A DNA stretch of 37,617 nt from Flavobacteriales bacterium BRH_c54 (GTDB lineage Bacteria; Bacteroidota; Bacteroidia; Flavobacteriales_E; Vicingaceae): positions 1 through 37,617 of the forward strand of contig LADZ01000033.1 of assembly GCA_000961845.1 (NCBI GenBank), given 5' to 3'. The notes under the pieces are model-generated. The model made no database searches, was not told the origin of the DNA, and saw nothing but the letters and a program-made list of their open reading frames with translations. Positions 1-36,198 of this stretch are shown here, in pieces; position 1 is the stretch's first letter, and each line of letters starts with the position of its first letter. The translations under genes and the position numbers were made by a program.

Positions 1-47
<47 letters not shown>

Positions 48-82
48 TAGTAAAATACCGATATAGAAAAAAACAAAAAAAG

Positions 83-156
83 AGCGGGAAACGGGATTCG
101 AACCCGCGACCCTCAGCTTGGAAGGCTGATGCTCTAGCCAGCTGAGCTACTCCCGC
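83..156 (-). tRNA. tRNA-Gly (TCC)
   Basis: The minus strand folds as a complete cloverleaf. The acceptor GCGGGAG pairs with TTCCCGC, with one G-T pair. The D-arm is GCTC/GAGC. The anticodon stem TCAGC/GCTGA has loop CTTCCAA (anticodon TCC), and the T-arm GCGGG/CCCGT encloses TTCGAAT. The discriminator base is T, and CCA is not encoded. It is the third tRNA in transcription order, between Tyr and Thr. Confidence 0.97.
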
Positions 157-170
157 TAATTTTTTATTCG

Positions 171-252
171 TGGGGAAAGCAGGATTCGAACCTACGAAGG
201 CGTAGCCAACAGATTTACAGTCTGTCCTCGTTGACCGCTTGAGTATTTCCCC
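171..252 (-). tRNA. tRNA-Tyr (GTA)
   Basis: This is a class II tRNA of 82 nt on the minus strand. The acceptor GGGGAAA pairs with TTTCCCC and the discriminator is A. The anticodon stem ACAGA/TCTGT encloses CTGTAAA (anticodon GTA). A long variable arm follows, then a T-arm with loop TTCGAAT. CCA is not encoded. The extended variable arm is expected for bacterial tRNA-Tyr. Confidence 0.97.
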
Positions 253-282
253 AACGTTTTTTTCATCGTTTTTAAAGAACTG

Positions 283-355
283 AGCCAGTAGAGGGACTCG
301 AACCTCCGACCGGCTGATTACAAATCAGCTGCTCTACCAACTGAGCTATACTGGC
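283..355 (-). tRNA. tRNA-Thr (TGT)
   Basis: This is a 73-nt cloverleaf on the minus strand. The acceptor GCCAGTA pairs with TACTGGC and the discriminator is T. The anticodon stem GCTGA/TCAGC encloses TTTGTAA (anticodon TGT). The T-loop is TTCGAGT. It is the first tRNA of the cluster, placed just after the strong promoter at 403-433. Confidence 0.97.
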
Positions 356-370
356 TTTTACCGTTTTTAC

Positions 371-402
371 AAAAAAAACAGACCTCTCCGTAAAAAGGTC
401 TG
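371..402 (-). terminator. intrinsic terminator after raiA, overlapping the tRNA operon start site
   Basis: On the minus strand CAGACCT (402-396) pairs with AGGTCTG (385-379) around a 10-nt loop, followed directly by eight T (378-371). This is a textbook Rho-independent terminator downstream of raiA. It lies immediately after the -7 box of a predicted promoter (403-433). A transcript started there would lack much of the left arm, so only read-through from raiA should be stopped. That last point is inference. Confidence 0.8.
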
Positions 403-433
403 CAAATGTATAAAAGATTTTATTTTAAACAAA
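403..433 (-). promoter_or_regulatory. Bacteroidota-type promoter for the tRNA(-tuf) operon
   Basis: On the minus strand TTTG (433-430) is followed by a 19-nt spacer and TACATTTG (410-403). This matches the primary sigma consensus known for Bacteroidota, TTTG-N19-TAnnTTTG, without mismatch. Transcription would start about 4-7 nt downstream, inside the hairpin at 379-402, and run into the four tRNAs. Confidence 0.75.
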
Positions 434-454
434 CAATAATTTAATTTTTTTTTA

Positions 455-760
455 TCACACTTTTTTTAGCTTCTCTTTATGCTTCTTTAATTGCCTTCTA
501 AGTGCCTCAACAGCAGCGTCAGTAGCCTCTTCAAAAGACTTACATTGTTTCTTTGCAAAAGCATCACTTCCGGGTATTAAAAGCTTAATTTCTGCTACTT
601 TGTTTTCTGCTTCGGGGGTATTTTCTAACTTTAATATCACTTCACTGTCTATTATCTTGTCATAAAACACACTTAATTTGTTTACTCTTTCTTGTATGAA
701 TTCAATTAACTTTTTATCTGCATCAAAATGTACTGATGTAATTTTAACATTTACTTTCAT
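455..760 (-). CDS. raiA: ribosome hibernation promoting factor, short HPF/RaiA family
   Basis: The 101-aa protein belongs to the ribosome-associated inhibitor / hibernation promoting family. These proteins bind the 30S subunit over the mRNA/tRNA channel and protect or dimerise idle ribosomes in stationary phase. The sequence has the typical short-form beta-alpha-beta-beta-beta-alpha layout. An N-terminal strand (MKVNVKITSVHFDAD) is followed by a helix ending near KLSVFYDKI, a VILKLEN strand, and a lysine-rich C-terminal helix (residues about 78-101). There is no long-form C-terminal dimerisation domain. Its ATG is preceded by a perfect AAGGAGG six bases upstream, which is unusual in this phylum. 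It starts 19 bp after the end of xerC, so the two are probably co-transcribed, and it is followed by a terminator. Confidence 0.93.
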   Translation of the reverse strand: MKVNVKITSVHFDADKKLIEFIQERVNKLSVFYDKIIDSEVILKLENTPEAENKVAEIKLLIPGSDAFAKKQCKSFEEATDAAVEALRRQLKKHKEKLKKV

Positions 761-773
761 TTTTTTCCTCCTT
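761..773 (-). promoter_or_regulatory. strong Shine-Dalgarno of raiA
   Basis: The minus strand reads AAGGAGG (773-767), then six A (766-761), then the ATG of raiA. I found no comparable site before the other genes in the window. In Flavobacterium the anti-Shine-Dalgarno of 16S rRNA is known to be sequestered on the ribosome by bS21 with bS18 and bS6, so a strong site suggests special translational control. Confidence 0.8.
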
Positions 774-779
774 TTTTAA

Positions 780-1664
780 TTATGCTCTCGGATGAGCTTG
801 TTTGTATATTGTTTTTAATTTTTCTATTGTATTATGTGTGTAAACTTGTGTGGCAGATAAACTAGCATGACCTAAAATTTCTTTTATCGTATTTAGCTCT
901 GCTCCTCTGTTTAACATGTGTGTGGCAAATGTATGTCTTATAACATGTGGACTTTTTTTACCTACTGTAGTTACAAGGCTAAGGTAGTTATTTACTATCC
1001 TATAAACAAGTTTTTCATAAATTTTCTTACCCCTTTCTGTTAAAAATACATAATTAGAATTGGTAGGGATTTCGGCTCTATATATAAGGTAATTTTGAAA
1101 TAATTTTATAAATTCACTTGTAATAGGAATAACTCTTTCTTTATTTCTTTTTCCTAACACTTTTATAGATAAATTATAGGTGTTAACATCACTTATTTTT
1201 AAGTTCATCAATTCACTTAAACGAATACCTGTTAAATAAAATAATTCCATTATTAGTTTATCTCTTTGTCCTTCAAATGTATCTTCAAATTCTATAGCAG
1301 AAAACAGTTGGCTGATTTCATTTTCATTAACAAATACTGGAAGCCGTTTAGATGTTTTAGGAACTACTACTTTTAATAAAGGATTAGTTATCACTAATTC
1401 ATTTTTCATCAAATACTTATAGATTGACTTTAATGATGAAATTTTTCTATTAATAGTTGTTGATGTGTTTCCTTCCTCTATTAAAGAAACTATCCATGAG
1501 CGAATAATGGATGTGTTGATTTCTGACCACTCGTTTACAGCAAAAGCATGTAGGGCGTATTGTATAAATTGTTCTAAATCGTTTTTATAGGCAGTAACAG
1601 TATGGTGGGAATATCGTTTTTGATGCTGAATGTAATCGCAAAACTGCTGTGCCTGATTTATCAT
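780..1664 (-). CDS. xerC: tyrosine recombinase XerC (chromosome dimer resolution)
   Basis: The 294-aa tyrosine recombinase has the usual XerC/XerD length and layout. A SAM-like core-binding domain spans roughly residues 1-90 and a catalytic domain roughly 110-290. The full catalytic set is visible: R148 in TGIRLSEL, K172 in GKRNKERVIPI, H240 and R243 in HVIRHTFATHM, H266 in LGHASL, and nucleophile Y275 in QVYTHNTI. Such enzymes resolve chromosome dimers at dif with a XerD partner. The gene lies between aroE and raiA beside a tRNA cluster. Despite the tRNA proximity it looks like the housekeeping enzyme, since no element ends or cargo are seen. Assignment to XerC rather than XerD rests on family resemblance and locus. 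Confidence 0.9.
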   Translation of the reverse strand: MINQAQQFCDYIQHQKRYSHHTVTAYKNDLEQFIQYALHAFAVNEWSEINTSIIRSWIVSLIEEGNTSTTINRKISSLKSIYKYLMKNELVITNPLLKVVVPKTSKRLPVFVNENEISQLFSAIEFEDTFEGQRDKLIMELFYLTGIRLSELMNLKISDVNTYNLSIKVLGKRNKERVIPITSEFIKLFQNYLIYRAEIPTNSNYVFLTERGKKIYEKLVYRIVNNYLSLVTTVGKKSPHVIRHTFATHMLNRGAELNTIKEILGHASLSATQVYTHNTIEKLKTIYKQAHPRA

Positions 1665-1742
1665 AATTGTAAAACTGTTTAGGACTTATTGAACGAGTTT
1701 ATTTCTAAAATGTTATCTAAAACAGACTAAAATTAATGATTT

Positions 1743-2480
1743 TTAACTACCCCATACCTCCCATGCTTTTTCAGCTTGTAGTTTGAGCATTTGTTCTCCA
1801 TTAATGGTTAATGCTCCTCTTTTTTTTCCTTCTTTCAAAAAAGCAGTTTCCGTAGGATTATAAACCAAATCGTACAGTAAATGATTGGATGTTATGGCAC
1901 CATAATTTAGTGGTGGTTTTTCTTCCACATTTGGGAAAGTCCCCAATGGCGTAGTGTTTACTATTAATAAAAAAGAAGCTAATATGTTTTCGTTCAGCTC
2001 ATCATAACTCAACTGATTTTCTGCGTGTAGAGTTCTGGATACAAAAGCAGTAATTATTCCTAATTCATTTAACACATATGCTACTGCTTTTGATGCTCCA
2101 CCTGTTCCTAAAATTAATGCTCGTTGGTGCTTGTTTTCCAAAAATGGTTTTAACGATTGCTTAAATCCATATACATCGGTATTGTATCCTTTCTTTTTTC
2201 CAGTTTTCTTATCTATATATATAGTATTAACTGCTCCTATTTTTTGAGCTTGTTCATCTATCTCATCTAAATAAGGTATAATTTGTTCTTTATAAGGTAT
2301 GGTTACATTTAGTCCGCAAAGGTTGGGGTGTGCTAAAAAAAGGTCTTCTATTTCACTAATATCATTCAGTTCAAAATTTTCATACACTGCATCGATCTTT
2401 TCTCTTTTAAACTTTTCTTCAAAATAATTTTTAGAAAATGAATGTGAAAGCGTTTTTCCTATTAGTCCGTATTGTTTCAT
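1743..2480 (-). CDS. aroE: shikimate dehydrogenase (NADP+)
   Basis: The 245-aa enzyme reduces 3-dehydroshikimate to shikimate with NADPH in aromatic amino acid and chorismate synthesis. The substrate domain begins with GLIGKTLSHSFSKNYF, carrying the shikimate-binding SHS motif. NVTIPYK places the catalytic lysine at K64, and YNTDVYGF places the paired aspartate at D102. The Rossmann domain follows with GTGGAS (125-130) and VSRT for cofactor binding. The length is slightly below the roughly 270 aa common in E. coli but normal for Bacteroidota. Its start codon lies 11 bp from a 63-bp tandem repeat, so promoter spacing or the leader may vary with repeat number. xerC follows after 78 bp. Confidence 0.95.
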   Translation of the reverse strand: MKQYGLIGKTLSHSFSKNYFEEKFKREKIDAVYENFELNDISEIEDLFLAHPNLCGLNVTIPYKEQIIPYLDEIDEQAQKIGAVNTIYIDKKTGKKKGYNTDVYGFKQSLKPFLENKHQRALILGTGGASKAVAYVLNELGIITAFVSRTLHAENQLSYDELNENILASFLLIVNTTPLGTFPNVEEKPPLNYGAITSNHLLYDLVYNPTETAFLKEGKKRGALTINGEQMLKLQAEKAWEVWGS

Positions 2481-2491
2481 TAAAAGTTACA

Positions 2492-2554
2492 GGTTTGAGG
2501 TTTGAGGTTTGAGGTTTGAGGTTTGAGGTTTGAGGTTTGAGGTTTGAGGTTTGA
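2492..2554. repeat. tandem repeat, 9 perfect copies of GGTTTGA
   Basis: Sixty-three bases consist of exactly nine uninterrupted copies of the heptamer GGTTTGA (TCAAACC in the aroE sense direction). They lie between the PorE-like gene and aroE, ending 11 bp before the aroE ATG. The adjoining 2560-2610 stretch is a looser series of CACAT/CACACAT motifs. Perfect repeats of this length are prone to slipped-strand copy-number change. Confidence 0.95.
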
Positions 2555-2608
2555 AATTTTCGCACATTAAAATTCACACATTTACACATCTATTAATCCA
2601 CACATTAA

Positions 2609-4612
2609 TCACTTTTCTACAACAATAAATTCTGTTCTTCTATTTTTAGCTCGTCCTTCTTCGGTATCGTTGGAAGCAATTGGTTGGGTTGAACCAAAAC
2701 CTTTTGAAGACAATCTTGATGGGTCAATATCTTCTAACAGCAAATAGTCATACACAGCTTTGGCTCTTCTTTCTGATAGCTCTAAGTTATCTTGCGGATT
2801 ACCGACATTATCGGTATGTCCGTTAATAGCAATTTTAACTGTTGGATTAGTTTTTAGGAAATCAATAAATTCATTCAGCACCAACATAATTTTAGGTGTA
2901 ATTTCATATGAATTAGTTGCAAAATTAATATCGTTAATGGTATGAGCTGAACCAACTTCTATAGGTTTCACTTCCATTTTTTTGGTTTGAATAGGTTTTC
3001 CTACCACAATTTCATTAGAAGAAATTAGCTGCGAAGTAAACGCATATCCTTTCTTTTTAGCGGTAAGCATAATATCTTCGTCCTTATCTACCCTAACAAC
3101 TCCAACATAAGAGCCTGTTTCTTTGTCAATAACAGCCTCTACTTCTTGGTTGGTTTTAGTATTTTTTAGCATTACTTGGGCTCCTTCAGGGACTTTTCCG
3201 GTATTGTCTAAAATTTCACCATTTATAAAAAGTACTTCTTCCGGTCGAGCTTCTTCATATAATTCAAAAGAAAAAATGTCAAGCTGTTTATCTTCACTCA
3301 TAGAACTATAATAAGCATAGTCTCCATCTTTACTTACCACAAATCCATGTTCATCTTTTTCTGTGTTAATAGGGTAACCAATATTTTTCGGTTTATTGAA
3401 TTGCCCAGTAGTAGGATCCATTTTTGAATAGAAAATATCGTAACCACCTAACCCAATATGTTCGTTAGAAGAAAAATACAAGGTATAACTATCGGAATGC
3501 ATAAATGGTGATTTTTCATCTCCGGGCGTATTTATAGGATAACCTAAATTAATAGGTTCTCCCCAAGAACCATCAGGTTGACGCTCACATTTGTAAATGT
3601 CCATGTCACCACCGAAAGGATCTACCACTCTGGTAAAGTAAAGTGTTTTATTATCGGATGAAATGGATGGCTGAGCCTCCCAAGTTGTTGGAGTGTTAAT
3701 GTGACTTCCAATAGATTCTAATTTTGACCATTCTCCATCTTTAAATTCTGTAAAATAAATATCCGCATTATCAAACATTTGCCCTAAACCTGCTCTGTTT
3801 TCTCCTCTATATGGAATTACCTCAACCAAGGTAATAAAAAGCAACTTATTATCTACAGCAACACTCACACCTCCCTGATATTGTCCTAAATTAAATGGTG
3901 ACGGCATAGGCATTCCGCTAGTAAATTTATTTACACCCATTTTTCTACTTTGCACAAACACCTCTTTACTTCCCCCATCAAAAGAATTCTTATCTTCATG
4001 TGGCATGTTTCGAGTGTAAAACAAGAACCTATTATCTGGCGACAACATGGGTAAATATTCATTGTGTTTACTTGAAGGTCCTTCTAACTTAACCGGATCA
4101 AAAGGAACGGTATCTTTAATTAATTTAAAATAAGTTGCTATATCTTCCAACCTCTCGTAAGCATAACGCTCGTCTTTTTTATACGCATTTGGTGAAGCTA
4201 TTATTTTTTGGAAATAAGGTTTGGCTTCTGCATATTTTCGTTGACCGAAATAATAATTTCCCAACTCCATAGCATGGAAAAAATTTCGATATTCCGGACA
4301 AATTTCAACAATCTTGTTCCAGTAATCTATCTTAATTTTAGTGTATTGTTGAATTCCGCTTGCATTTCCGCTATTATAAGCTCGTTCAACACTTTTATCA
4401 GCAAGGTTTGCCAACTCATCATAAGCCTCTAAATAATTGGGGTCAATTTTAATAGCTTCTATTAGTAAGGTCTTTTTATCATTAAATGAAGCTGTTCTGG
4501 CATTCTCGAAATATTTTACCGCTTTTTTCTTGGGTTCAGGGCAATTTTCTTCCTGAGCATATACACCCGAAAAACATAAAATTACAATTGCTAAAAATAT
4601 ATAGTTACTCAC
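2609..4612 (-). CDS. PorE-like TPR/PD40/CRD/OmpA envelope protein
   Basis: The 667-aa exported protein has the domain order of the type IX secretion component PorE, although many paralogues of this type exist. A signal peptide ends near GVYAQ. TPR-like helices occupy about 25-160. A PD40 beta-propeller occupies about 175-450, with repeated units such as LYFSSN and GGYDIF. A carboxypeptidase-regulatory-like domain occupies about 458-540. An OmpA C-terminal peptidoglycan-binding domain occupies about 559-667, with GHTDNVG and LSERRAKAVYDYL. The domain is intact, so binding to peptidoglycan at the inner face of the outer membrane is expected. The apparent start is GTG. Three lysines that would make a better signal-peptide n-region lie just upstream in the same frame, so the true start is uncertain. 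It follows the AsmA gene's terminator. Confidence 0.85.
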   Translation of the reverse strand: MSNYIFLAIVILCFSGVYAQEENCPEPKKKAVKYFENARTASFNDKKTLLIEAIKIDPNYLEAYDELANLADKSVERAYNSGNASGIQQYTKIKIDYWNKIVEICPEYRNFFHAMELGNYYFGQRKYAEAKPYFQKIIASPNAYKKDERYAYERLEDIATYFKLIKDTVPFDPVKLEGPSSKHNEYLPMLSPDNRFLFYTRNMPHEDKNSFDGGSKEVFVQSRKMGVNKFTSGMPMPSPFNLGQYQGGVSVAVDNKLLFITLVEVIPYRGENRAGLGQMFDNADIYFTEFKDGEWSKLESIGSHINTPTTWEAQPSISSDNKTLYFTRVVDPFGGDMDIYKCERQPDGSWGEPINLGYPINTPGDEKSPFMHSDSYTLYFSSNEHIGLGGYDIFYSKMDPTTGQFNKPKNIGYPINTEKDEHGFVVSKDGDYAYYSSMSEDKQLDIFSFELYEEARPEEVLFINGEILDNTGKVPEGAQVMLKNTKTNQEVEAVIDKETGSYVGVVRVDKDEDIMLTAKKKGYAFTSQLISSNEIVVGKPIQTKKMEVKPIEVGSAHTINDINFATNSYEITPKIMLVLNEFIDFLKTNPTVKIAINGHTDNVGNPQDNLELSERRAKAVYDYLLLEDIDPSRLSSKGFGSTQPIASNDTEEGRAKNRRTEFIVVEK

Positions 4613-33921: not shown

Positions 33922-36198
33922 ATGAAAAAAATAGCTTTATTATCTGTCTTAATTAGTATTGCCACTTTAAGTTTTTCTCAAGATAATTTCAGACAAAAAT
34001 TTTTAGAAGCCAATACGCTTATGGAAGAAAACTCTTACAATGTTGCCCTTCCTATTTGGTTAAAATTAAGTATTGAAGAGCCTGATAACTTCAATATCAA
34101 TTATAAGATTGGTATTTGTTATATGAATTCTGCAAACGAAAAAGCAAAAGCATTAGACTATTTAATTAAAGCCTCACAAAATACCACATCTAATTACGAT
34201 CCTTTTTCTCACTCAGAAAAAAGTGCTCCATTAGAAGCTTTATTCTACGTTGCTAGAGCTTATCATTTAAATTATGAGTTTGATGCGGCAATAATGAACT
34301 ACAATACCTTTAAAGATAAAATCACTAAAAAACATTATTTATTCAACGAGATAGATCGTTATTTAACTCAAGCTCAATTTGCCAAACAAGCTGTTGCTAA
34401 TCCGGTAAATATTCTTCTTAAAAATATTGGTTCCGAAATCAATTCTGAATATGCAGATTACAGTCCTGTAATTTCTATTGATGAATCAAGCATCTATTTT
34501 ACTTCTAGAAGGTTAAGACCTGACAGCTCTAACTATTACATCACTGATGATTTTGATGGTAAACATTTTGAAGACATTTATGTTTCTCATAGTTATGATG
34601 GTGTTTGGACAGCTCCTGAATTGCTAACGATTAATACTGATGGACATTTAGCTACTGTAAATATTTCTGCCGATGGGCAAACACTTTTTGTTTATCGTGA
34701 TGATAATGGTGATGGAAACATCTATACCACAACTAAAAACCAAGATGACCAATGGGGAGAATTAGTAAAATTAGGTTCCGATATTAATACAGAATACAAA
34801 GAATCTCATGCTCATGTTACTCCTGATGGAAATGTATTGTACTTTATCAGCGATAGAAAAAAAGGCGGACTAGGCGGTCAAGATATTTATTTCTGTAAAA
34901 AATTACCTACTGGTGATTGGGGTTTAGCTCAAAATGCAGGAAATATATTAAACACTCCTTATGACGAAGATGGTATTTTCTTGCACCCTGACGGAAAAAC
35001 AATTTATTTTTCCTCTAAAGGACACAGCAGTATGGGTGGTTTTGATATTTTTTATTCAGAATTAGATGAAACAGGAAACTGGGGAGCTCCAATAAATATG
35101 GGATATCCGGTAAACTCTACCGATGATGATGTGTTCTTTGTTACTTCTACAGATGGAAAAAGAGCGTATTATTCTTCTTTTAAACAAGATGGTTTTGGGG
35201 AGAAAGACATTTATGTAATTACGCTTGTTGATGCTCAAGAAAAACCACTTACCTTATTAACAGGTTTCTTAAAAGTAGCAGGTTTTGATGAAACTCCCGA
35301 AAGTGCTATTATTACTGTTACAGATAACGAAACAGGAAATTTAATTGGAAGGTATGTGCCTAGAAAAAAAGATGGTAAATTCAGTATTATCCTAAACCCG
35401 GGAGGCGATTACCACATTGAATATGCTGCCGAAAGCTACACTATGGAAGAAGATATTTATATTCCACCGGTTTCTGCTTATAATGAAATTAACAGAGGTA
35501 TTGATTTAAAAGATGTGATTTTTGGTGATGTACAAAATACAGATACTAAAACCGATACTAAAACAGACACTAAAACTGATACAAAAGTAGACAACAAAGA
35601 GGATGTTGTTGCCTTAAAAAATGAAATCAAAAACTTAAAGAAACAAATTAAAGACTTAGAAAATGAACTGGCTAAAAAACCTGCTACAACTAACACTACA
35701 GGTAATGACAGTGAAAAAGTTAAAAACCTTCAAAATGAAGTGAATGCTTTAAAAAATCAAATTGCTGAGTTGAAAAAACAAGGTAATAACAACGATTTTA
35801 CTCCTACTCCAACGGAAGTTAAAGATGCTGTTGCTCATTATCAAGAATTTTTCAACTACAATGTTTCTAAAGTAAATACTTCTAATGCAAAATACGTAGA
35901 GATGATTAACAAAGCTGTAGCCCACGCAAAATCTAATGGAAAAGTAACTATTGATGTTGAATCAAGTGCTTCTAAAGTACCTACAAAAACTCATGGCTCC
36001 AATGCAAAATTAGCATACAAAAGAGCTATAGCTGCTCAGGAGGTTGTTGTTAATTCATTGGTAAGCAAAGGTATTGCAAGAGAGAATATTCTTATCAATA
36101 ATGTAACCACAGGTGTACAAGGTCCTAATTATAATGGAGATTTTGCTAATAAAAAAATGTATGAGCAATATCAATTTGTAATTATAAAAATTAAATAA
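33922..36198 (+). CDS. TPR/PD40/CRD/OmpA-like exported protein with degenerate OmpA domain
   Basis: The 758-aa protein has a signal peptide (about 1-19, ATLSFSQ), TPR-like helices (about 20-160) and a PD40 propeller (about 175-445, with SIYFTSRR, LYFISDRKKGGLGGQDIYF and IYFSSKGHSSMGGFDIFYSE). A carboxypeptidase-regulatory-like domain spans about 448-530. A TKTDTKTD-type linker (about 538-555) and a coiled coil (about 560-630) follow. The C-terminal region (about 640-758) follows an OmpA C-terminal pattern, with NAKLAYKRAIAAQEVVVNSLVSKGI, but the usual GHTD block is replaced by VESSASKVPTK. The peptidoglycan-contact aspartate is therefore missing. It probably acts in the periplasm as a scaffold. 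The next gene starts 13 bp downstream with a similar architecture. Confidence 0.85.
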   Translation: MKKIALLSVLISIATLSFSQDNFRQKFLEANTLMEENSYNVALPIWLKLSIEEPDNFNINYKIGICYMNSANEKAKALDYLIKASQNTTSNYDPFSHSEKSAPLEALFYVARAYHLNYEFDAAIMNYNTFKDKITKKHYLFNEIDRYLTQAQFAKQAVANPVNILLKNIGSEINSEYADYSPVISIDESSIYFTSRRLRPDSSNYYITDDFDGKHFEDIYVSHSYDGVWTAPELLTINTDGHLATVNISADGQTLFVYRDDNGDGNIYTTTKNQDDQWGELVKLGSDINTEYKESHAHVTPDGNVLYFISDRKKGGLGGQDIYFCKKLPTGDWGLAQNAGNILNTPYDEDGIFLHPDGKTIYFSSKGHSSMGGFDIFYSELDETGNWGAPINMGYPVNSTDDDVFFVTSTDGKRAYYSSFKQDGFGEKDIYVITLVDAQEKPLTLLTGFLKVAGFDETPESAIITVTDNETGNLIGRYVPRKKDGKFSIILNPGGDYHIEYAAESYTMEEDIYIPPVSAYNEINRGIDLKDVIFGDVQNTDTKTDTKTDTKTDTKVDNKEDVVALKNEIKNLKKQIKDLENELAKKPATTNTTGNDSEKVKNLQNEVNALKNQIAELKKQGNNNDFTPTPTEVKDAVAHYQEFFNYNVSKVNTSNAKYVEMINKAVAHAKSNGKVTIDVESSASKVPTKTHGSNAKLAYKRAIAAQEVVVNSLVSKGIARENILINNVTTGVQGPNYNGDFANKKMYEQYQFVIIKIK
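35543..35588 (+). repeat. coding 12-bp repeat (Thr-Lys-Thr-Asp linker)
   Basis: About four imperfect 12-bp units encode alternating TKTD. Codon third positions differ between copies (ACC, ACA, ACT; GAT, GAC), so the protein repeat seems maintained by selection rather than by recent slippage. It forms a flexible linker between the CRD-like domain and the coiled coil. Confidence 0.7.

Follow-up and report, generated by a model that had tools for sequence, protein, structure and literature searches.

A predicted transcription start inside a terminator stem between raiA and the tRNA-tuf operon of Bacteroidota

In Flavobacteriales bacterium BRH_c54, raiA encodes a short ribosome hibernation factor and is followed, after a spacer of 99 nt, by tRNA-Thr(TGT), the first gene of a downstream transcription unit. 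How can the two units be kept apart when the terminator of one and the promoter of the other occupy the same bases? The window, i.e., the whole stretch of DNA analyzed here (contig LADZ01000033.1, 37,617 nucleotides), had received a first-pass annotation, which described a consensus promoter directly adjoining the left arm of a strong hairpin and offered two readings. Either the hairpin stops transcripts arriving from raiA and is passed by those that start at the promoter, or it is part of the leader of the promoter's own transcript and attenuates it. The relevant features are listed in the direction of transcription:

2480-1743, minus strand: shikimate dehydrogenase gene
1664-780, minus strand: gene for an XerC/D-type recombinase (xerC)
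455-760, minus strand: raiA, short ribosome hibernation factor (open reading frame and Pfam Ribosomal_S30AE, 76.5 bits)
430-433, minus strand: TTTG, -33 element of the tRNA-tuf promoter, assigned by sequence
429-411, minus strand: 19-nt promoter spacer
403-410, minus strand: TACATTTG, -7 element, assigned by sequence; TAnnTTTG in 160 of 160 related spacers
397-402, minus strand: CAGACC, promoter discriminator and outer left arm of the terminator, with conserved C and CC, corresponding to the CNNNCC pattern of the genome
398-400, minus strand: predicted transcription start, placed by the spacing rules described in PMC9723704 and PMC7366714
378-403, minus strand: terminator stem-loop with 11 pairs and a 4-nt loop
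371-378, minus strand: T run (U-tract) of eight unbroken T, the first of which pairs with G403 in the fold
282-355, minus strand: tRNA-Thr(TGT), which opens the downstream unit
170-252, minus strand: tRNA-Tyr
82-156, minus strand: tRNA-Gly
1-47, minus strand: beginning of a fourth tRNA, truncated by the window edge; tRNA-Thr(GGT) by comparison with relatives

The upstream unit is xerC-raiA, with raiA as its last gene (stop codon 457-455, minus strand). When positions 1-1000 of the window were searched for known RNA families, the gathering score was reached by four tRNA matches only. The gene tuf resides on another contig, C43, which has 43 bases in common with the start of the window. In a relative whose raiA is 98% identical (L039), xerC, raiA, four tRNA genes, tuf, tRNA-Trp and nusG (the latter recognized by eye) are contiguous. 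The earlier suggestion named four tRNAs and probably tuf downstream of the promoter; in the window, three tRNA genes are complete and one is partial. The same order, tRNA-Thr-Tyr-Gly-Thr-tuf, is present in the enterobacterial tufB operon. Further upstream, at 2491-2554, the window carries a perfect 7-bp tandem repeat of AGGTTTG in 9.1 copies, situated just behind an OmpA-like gene and ahead of the shikimate dehydrogenase gene.

Promoter and hairpin meet as had been described. On the minus strand, an exact match to the Bacteroidota primary-sigma promoter, TTTG-N19-TACATTTG at 433-403, runs into the hairpin and its T run at 403-371. The stem starts either at G403, the last base of the -7 element, as a G-U pair, or at C402, so that promoter and stem share one base or abut. 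Terminator and promoter have the bases 403-397 in common, and the site thus qualifies as an inter-operon terminator-promoter overlap. The site has the sequence features of an intrinsic terminator, a GC-containing stable stem-loop with a U-tract directly behind the stem. RNA corresponding to 403-365 folds with -14.1 kcal/mol (z -3.9), and one of 200 shuffled sequences folded equally well. The raiA-tRNA spacer of the window contains one TAnnTTTG box and one terminator-like site, and a scan of positions 1-3000 yielded two further terminator-like sites on the minus strand, both within tRNA-Thr. The tRNA-tuf promoter was not listed in a sigma-70 scan, as expected given its different consensus. The possibility of a bidirectional terminator was rejected, as the hairpin has no U-tract when read on the plus strand.

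The position of the transcription start decides how much of the hairpin is present in the tRNA-tuf transcript. For Flavobacterium psychrophilum, the TAnnTTTG box is described at -12 to -5 (PMC9723704), while in Bacteroides thetaiotaomicron it is described as centered on -7, with A and G as the commonest first bases of transcripts (PMC7366714). Applied to the present promoter, the former spacing predicts a start at 398 and the latter at 399 or 400. By analogy, the purine preference favors a start at 399-401 over C398. The earlier prediction of a start inside the left arm agrees with the published spacing, and the purine preference leaves A401 in the running. For starts at 403, 401, 400, 399 and 398, the predicted energy of the hairpin is -14.0, -10.1, -9.0, -5.0 and -3.8 kcal/mol, respectively, and 0, 2, 3, 4 and 5 unpaired bases precede the U-tract. 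According to these predicted folds for the window, the leader would not contain the complete hairpin if transcription started at 398-400 and would contain a nearly complete one with a start at 401-402. Terminator hairpins work when they are closed right against the U-tract, and on account of this requirement the loss of the outer pairs would hurt twice.

We consider it probable that the terminator is blind to its own promoter and thereby insulates the raiA unit from the tRNA-tuf unit. RNA polymerase coming from xerC-raiA would copy the whole stem (403-378), and the raiA RNA would form the 11-pair hairpin directly against the U-tract, whereupon transcription would stop. RNA polymerase at the tRNA-tuf promoter would start within the left arm (at about 400-398) and produce an RNA without the three to five outermost left-arm bases. 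The hairpin in this RNA would be weaker (between -9 and -4 instead of -14 kcal/mol) and separated from the U-tract by 3-5 nt, and transcription would continue into tRNA-Thr-Tyr-Gly-Thr-tuf. The outer left arm would be held in place by a second duty, that of the GC-rich discriminator (CAGWCC, generally CNNNCC) found at rRNA, tRNA and ribosomal-protein promoters of this genome, which would leave evolution to supply just the matching right arm and the T run. In this scheme, the anatomy, its conservation, the alternation with separate terminators, the energies and the gene classes are shown, whereas we infer the start site, the stopping of raiA RNA, the escape of RNA that starts at the promoter and any growth-dependent or stringent control by way of the discriminator.

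The comparison with related genomes that had been proposed along with the two readings was carried out on 236 raiA loci. Of these, 30 came from the genome itself and its family, 80 were named loci (out of 527 relatives in GTDB contigs, the best 80) and 126 were drawn class-wide, including nine further members of the same family. Many of the genomes are fragmentary assemblies. An order-level search led to the same 46 genomes as the family-level search. tRNA-Thr(TGT) lies at most 600 nt behind raiA in 172 of the 236 loci, i.e., the gene order raiA-tRNA-Thr is kept. The 64 loci left out either had no tRNA in the fetched stretch (56), tRNA-Thr at a distance of more than 600 nt (six), another tRNA (one) or no raiA stop codon (one). 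Removal of 12 duplicates resulted in 160 distinct raiA-tRNA spacers. The promoter box TAnnTTTG is present in every one of them. Among the 158 spacers that were classed as upstream, fused or neither, 128 also have TTG at a distance of 18-20 nt ahead of the box.

A terminator was scored strictly as a hairpin plus T tract and was termed fused when its left arm begins where the -7 box ends. A weak 49-nt hairpin in L050 was not counted as fused, which changes the tally for both, upstream, fused and neither from 3/53/67/37 to 2/54/67/37. By this strict rule, 54 of the 160 spacers have an upstream terminator only, 67 a fused one only, two have both and 37 have neither (Fisher p 2e-15, ignoring relatedness); these 37 loci are left unexplained. 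A lenient rule gives 48 upstream only, 79 fused only, 13 both and 20 neither (p 2e-13). One locus per coded family was also drawn 500 times from 111 loci in 35 families. In these draws, the median p was 0.004 for the strict and 0.012 for the lenient rule, with the 90th percentile of the latter at 0.08, such that the alternation is significant, though not overwhelming, at the family level. By the strict rule, 17 of the 35 families contain the fused form, and the raiA protein tree requires at least 16 changes between upstream and fused states. Independent pairs on this tree gave no significant result; the supported branches provide only 7 (or 5) of them. Taken together, the spacer sequences suggest that fused and separate upstream raiA terminators tend to replace each other. 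The 67 fused spacers, with a median of 118 nt, are also shorter than the 56 with an upstream terminator, for which the median is 189.5 nt (p 2e-16 when relatedness is ignored), which fits the earlier notion that the arrangement needs no extra DNA.

Six of the loci with an upstream terminator (L050, L051, L052, L055, L060 and L195) have tandem promoters. Here, the separate terminator is strong and has a fusion of its own, to an additional TAnnTTTG box on the upstream side; the downstream box is not fused. In four loci from one GC-rich family (L238, L249, L260 and L269), the T-rich tail of the upstream hairpin seems to overlap the -33 TTTG, an assignment made partly by eye.

Fused hairpins were found in 72 of 160 spacers, compared with a mean of 1.75 (maximum 4) in 20 shuffles of the sequence behind the discriminator. 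Of 100 further consensus promoters located in these loci, a single one carries a fused hairpin (L109), and this one also precedes tRNA-Thr. For 68 of 69 fused loci, the stem starts with the last T or G of the -7 box or with one of the two bases that come next. These stems reach upstream of the predicted start, and the outer pairs should therefore exist only in RNA reading through from raiA. Over the 69 fused loci, the median energy is -14.2 kcal/mol for the whole stem and -10.1, -9.0, -5.0 and -4.1 kcal/mol for starts 2, 3, 4 and 5 bases past the box, respectively. When the inner hairpin is used to set the register, bases 3, 2 and 1 past the box have a complementarity of 0.79, 0.83 and 0.62 in 66 fused loci, of 0.30, 0.30 and 0.17 in 46 of the 56 upstream-terminator loci and of 0.58, 0.38 and 0.38 in 26 of the 37 loci with neither terminator. 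The third base in the 66 fused loci forms G-C pairs in 43 cases, G-T in four, C-G in two, T-A in two and A-T in one and is unpaired in 14, as counted by a script with a register rule that may be off by one base within runs of G. For the T of the -7 box, complementarity is lower in fused than in upstream-terminator loci (0.18 versus 0.61).

If transcription started at 401-403 instead, most of the hairpin would remain in the tRNA-tuf leader, part of the transcripts from the promoter would stop at about 371-378 and read-through would be regulated. Such an attenuator can draw on the A that is found at the place equivalent to 401 in 95% of the 160 spacers, on the preference for purines as first bases in B. 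thetaiotaomicron (PMC7366714) and on the frd terminator, which is reported to act as an attenuator of ampC (PMC11838884). Our expectation for an attenuator is that it occurs independently of any other terminator, but the hairpin is mostly missing where raiA has one: two spacers with both face 54 with the upstream terminator only, and both occur together in just 2 of 160 spacers by the strict and 13 of 160 by the lenient rule. In addition, right arms extend past the published start position, and the approximately 15 nt between the end of the T run and tRNA-Thr offer little room for an antiterminator or a leader peptide. Together, these observations lead us to prefer insulation and to regard attenuation as improbable. 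Note that a start at A401 would still leave a hairpin of -10.1 kcal/mol and with it some attenuation. With respect to the two alternatives raised originally, insulation is thus supported by the comparative evidence, including the alternation of terminators, 68 of 69 stem starts and the shorter fused spacers, and attenuation is disfavored; neither is proven.

A further explanation assumes a leaky overlap, by which part of the transcription from raiA feeds the tRNA-tuf unit, and would amount to co-regulation more than to insulation. The conserved order of raiA and tRNA-Thr in 172 of 236 loci would be in line with it, as would the overlap between tufB and secE in Salmonella, for which a significant role in expression regulation and fitness is reported (PMC7055797). 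The strong hairpins, the T runs and the alternation with separate terminators nevertheless point to efficient stopping, and we find leakage of this kind unlikely. That the hairpin serves mainly as a 5' leader structure of the tRNA-tuf RNA, acting in stability, processing or boxA presentation with its terminator likeness being secondary, is very improbable, since a 5' hairpin of merely -4 to -9 kcal/mol is predicted from the expected start, with the outer right arm unpartnered, and the fused hairpin is mostly absent from upstream-terminator loci in which the tRNA operon is still there, even though the right arm runs directly into a boxA-like GTTCTTT in the distant relatives L255, L256, L265, L267 and L270.

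In these same five loci, the T-rich tail may double as boxA. Of 54 upstream-terminator loci, 39 have the motif GTTC[AT]TT in the leader and 20 have it in the stretch between tRNA-Thr and tRNA-Tyr; for the 67 fused loci, the numbers are 16 and 36, respectively. The window itself has a boxA-like GTTCTTTAAAAA between tRNA-Thr and tRNA-Tyr (269-280, minus strand); 0.17 occurrences are expected in the window by chance, and the string was present in 15 of 100 shuffles.

The proposed insulation also assigns a role to the left arm in the promoter. As our promoter-picking rule prefers boxes that are followed by C and CC, discriminator counts were taken from the 141 spacers with a single box. C is the next base in all 141, CC occupies bases 5-6 in 133 and CAGNCC is present in 97. 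As a background, among 582 TAnnTTTG strings found elsewhere on both strands of L009-L118, the next base is C in 42% and the fifth base is C in 29%. CNNNCC is kept in 52 of the 54 loci with an upstream terminator only, where the right arm is gone. Since the left arm stays without its partner, it appears to have a separate promoter duty. The stringent rRNA-type promoters of Proteobacteria have a GC-rich discriminator between the -10/-7 box and the start. CNNNCC may well be its counterpart in Bacteroidota, as it likewise forms a GC-rich stretch between box and start at promoters for stable RNA and ribosomal proteins; unlike the proteobacterial element it has the specific form C-N-N-N-C-C and accompanies a different sigma consensus, and the two are likened here by sequence alone. 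A full-text search of part of the open-licence literature found no description of a CNNNCC discriminator in Bacteroidota.

Is this element confined to the raiA-tRNA spacer? In the genome of strain BRH_c54 (G000), the pattern TTG-N18-20-TAnnTTTG-CNNNCC has 18 matches (L305-L322), compared with one for the same pattern written backwards. When the base after the box is not C, the -33/-7 consensus is near chance in this genome, with 275 matches versus 245 backwards, and among 30 of these 275 control sites inspected by eye none was recognizable as preceding a tRNA or ribosomal-protein unit. Seventeen of the 18 CNNNCC sites precede genes of the translation apparatus, i.e., eight tRNA units, the 16S rRNA (assigned by its position), a gene for an rpsA-like S1-domain protein and those for ribosomal proteins L31, S12, L19, L34, S21, S16 and S6, while the eighteenth precedes a gene for an MgtE-type transporter. 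The discriminator and these sites lend sequence-based support to the earlier description of the tRNA-tuf promoter as growth-linked. Genome G157, the second one examined, has eight sites, five of which belong to tRNA, ribosomal-protein or S1-domain genes; one further site probably belongs to rRNA (judged from a short string only), and two have no tRNA or open reading frame called. In a third (G185), one of seven sites is translation-related (rpmH, by eye), and the backwards control gave two matches; other sites in this genome precede genes for a DEAD-box helicase, a DUF2851 protein and a membrane-protein-like product without Pfam match, and the three others received no assignment. The signature is not clean in every genome, as it is reproduced partly in G157 and hardly in G185. 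The exact string TANNTTTGCAGWCC has 38 matches in nine genomes of the family versus one backwards, several of the inspected matches being situated within coding sequence or beside unrelated genes. Among 23 rRNA loci scanned, a 16S anchor string was found in 13 (two of them from one genome), and in each of the 13 readable rRNA leaders a TAnnTTTG box occurs at least once with a hexamer behind it that begins with C and includes CC, such as CAGCCC, CACTCC or CGTCCC. These patterns are compatible with promoter plus CNNNCC as a possible genome-wide signature of growth-linked promoters.

In several rRNA leaders of the family (L151-L174), TAnnTTTG boxes with C-rich discriminators stand in tandem, two to four per leader, and in L165 they come as three near-identical copies of about 95 nt. 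In most of these leaders, a boxA-like GTTCTTTGA follows the tandem boxes. The window has a second match to TAnnTTTGCNNNCC at 36060-36073 on the minus strand, TACCTTTGCTTACC, with 0.45 matches expected by chance.

Overlap of terminators and promoters as such is already known. Concatenated translation operons of Salmonella, e.g., tufB-secE, are described as having inter-operon terminator-promoter overlaps (Brandis, Cao and Hughes 2019, via PMC7055797), and interruption of the overlap is reported to change expression or fitness (PMC7055797). The present locus resembles tufB-secE in that the terminator of one unit overlaps the next promoter in the neighborhood of tuf. It differs in that the overlap is in front of the tRNA-tuf unit, with raiA upstream, and in that the predicted start falls inside the left arm and the arm equals the discriminator, where the Salmonella overlaps are compared through the citing description alone. 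In E. coli, the frd terminator hairpin (+17 to +37) is described as lying wholly in the ampC leader and attenuating ampC (PMC11838884). There, too, one hairpin ends the upstream operon just behind the start of the downstream one; unlike this hairpin, the stem studied here would contain the start. A full-text search of open-licence papers found no description of a start inside the terminator arm at raiA-tRNA-tuf. What is new, judged from the sequences compared, would be the predicted start in the arm and a discriminator arm kept across the class.

On balance, we lean towards the view that Bacteroidota have a recurring design in which the discriminator of a growth-regulated promoter is at the same time the outer left arm of the preceding terminator, with repeated gain and loss at raiA/tRNA-tuf, and that CNNNCC marks promoters of the translation apparatus in at least part of the phylum. 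If the start indeed lies within the arm, one and the same sequence stops incoming polymerase and is invisible to polymerase starting there. This suggests a compact rule by which a start site inside a terminator stem insulates neighboring units with no extra DNA. Where annotation takes it for granted that a hairpin acts on all transcripts running through it, sites of this kind could be mistaken for attenuators. The promoter plus CNNNCC signature, with 17 of 18 sites at translation-apparatus genes in the genome of strain BRH_c54, makes growth-rate control in Bacteroidota directly testable. For the organism, the arrangement would separate the hibernation factor gene raiA from the growth-linked tRNA-tuf unit, between which leakage could be costly.
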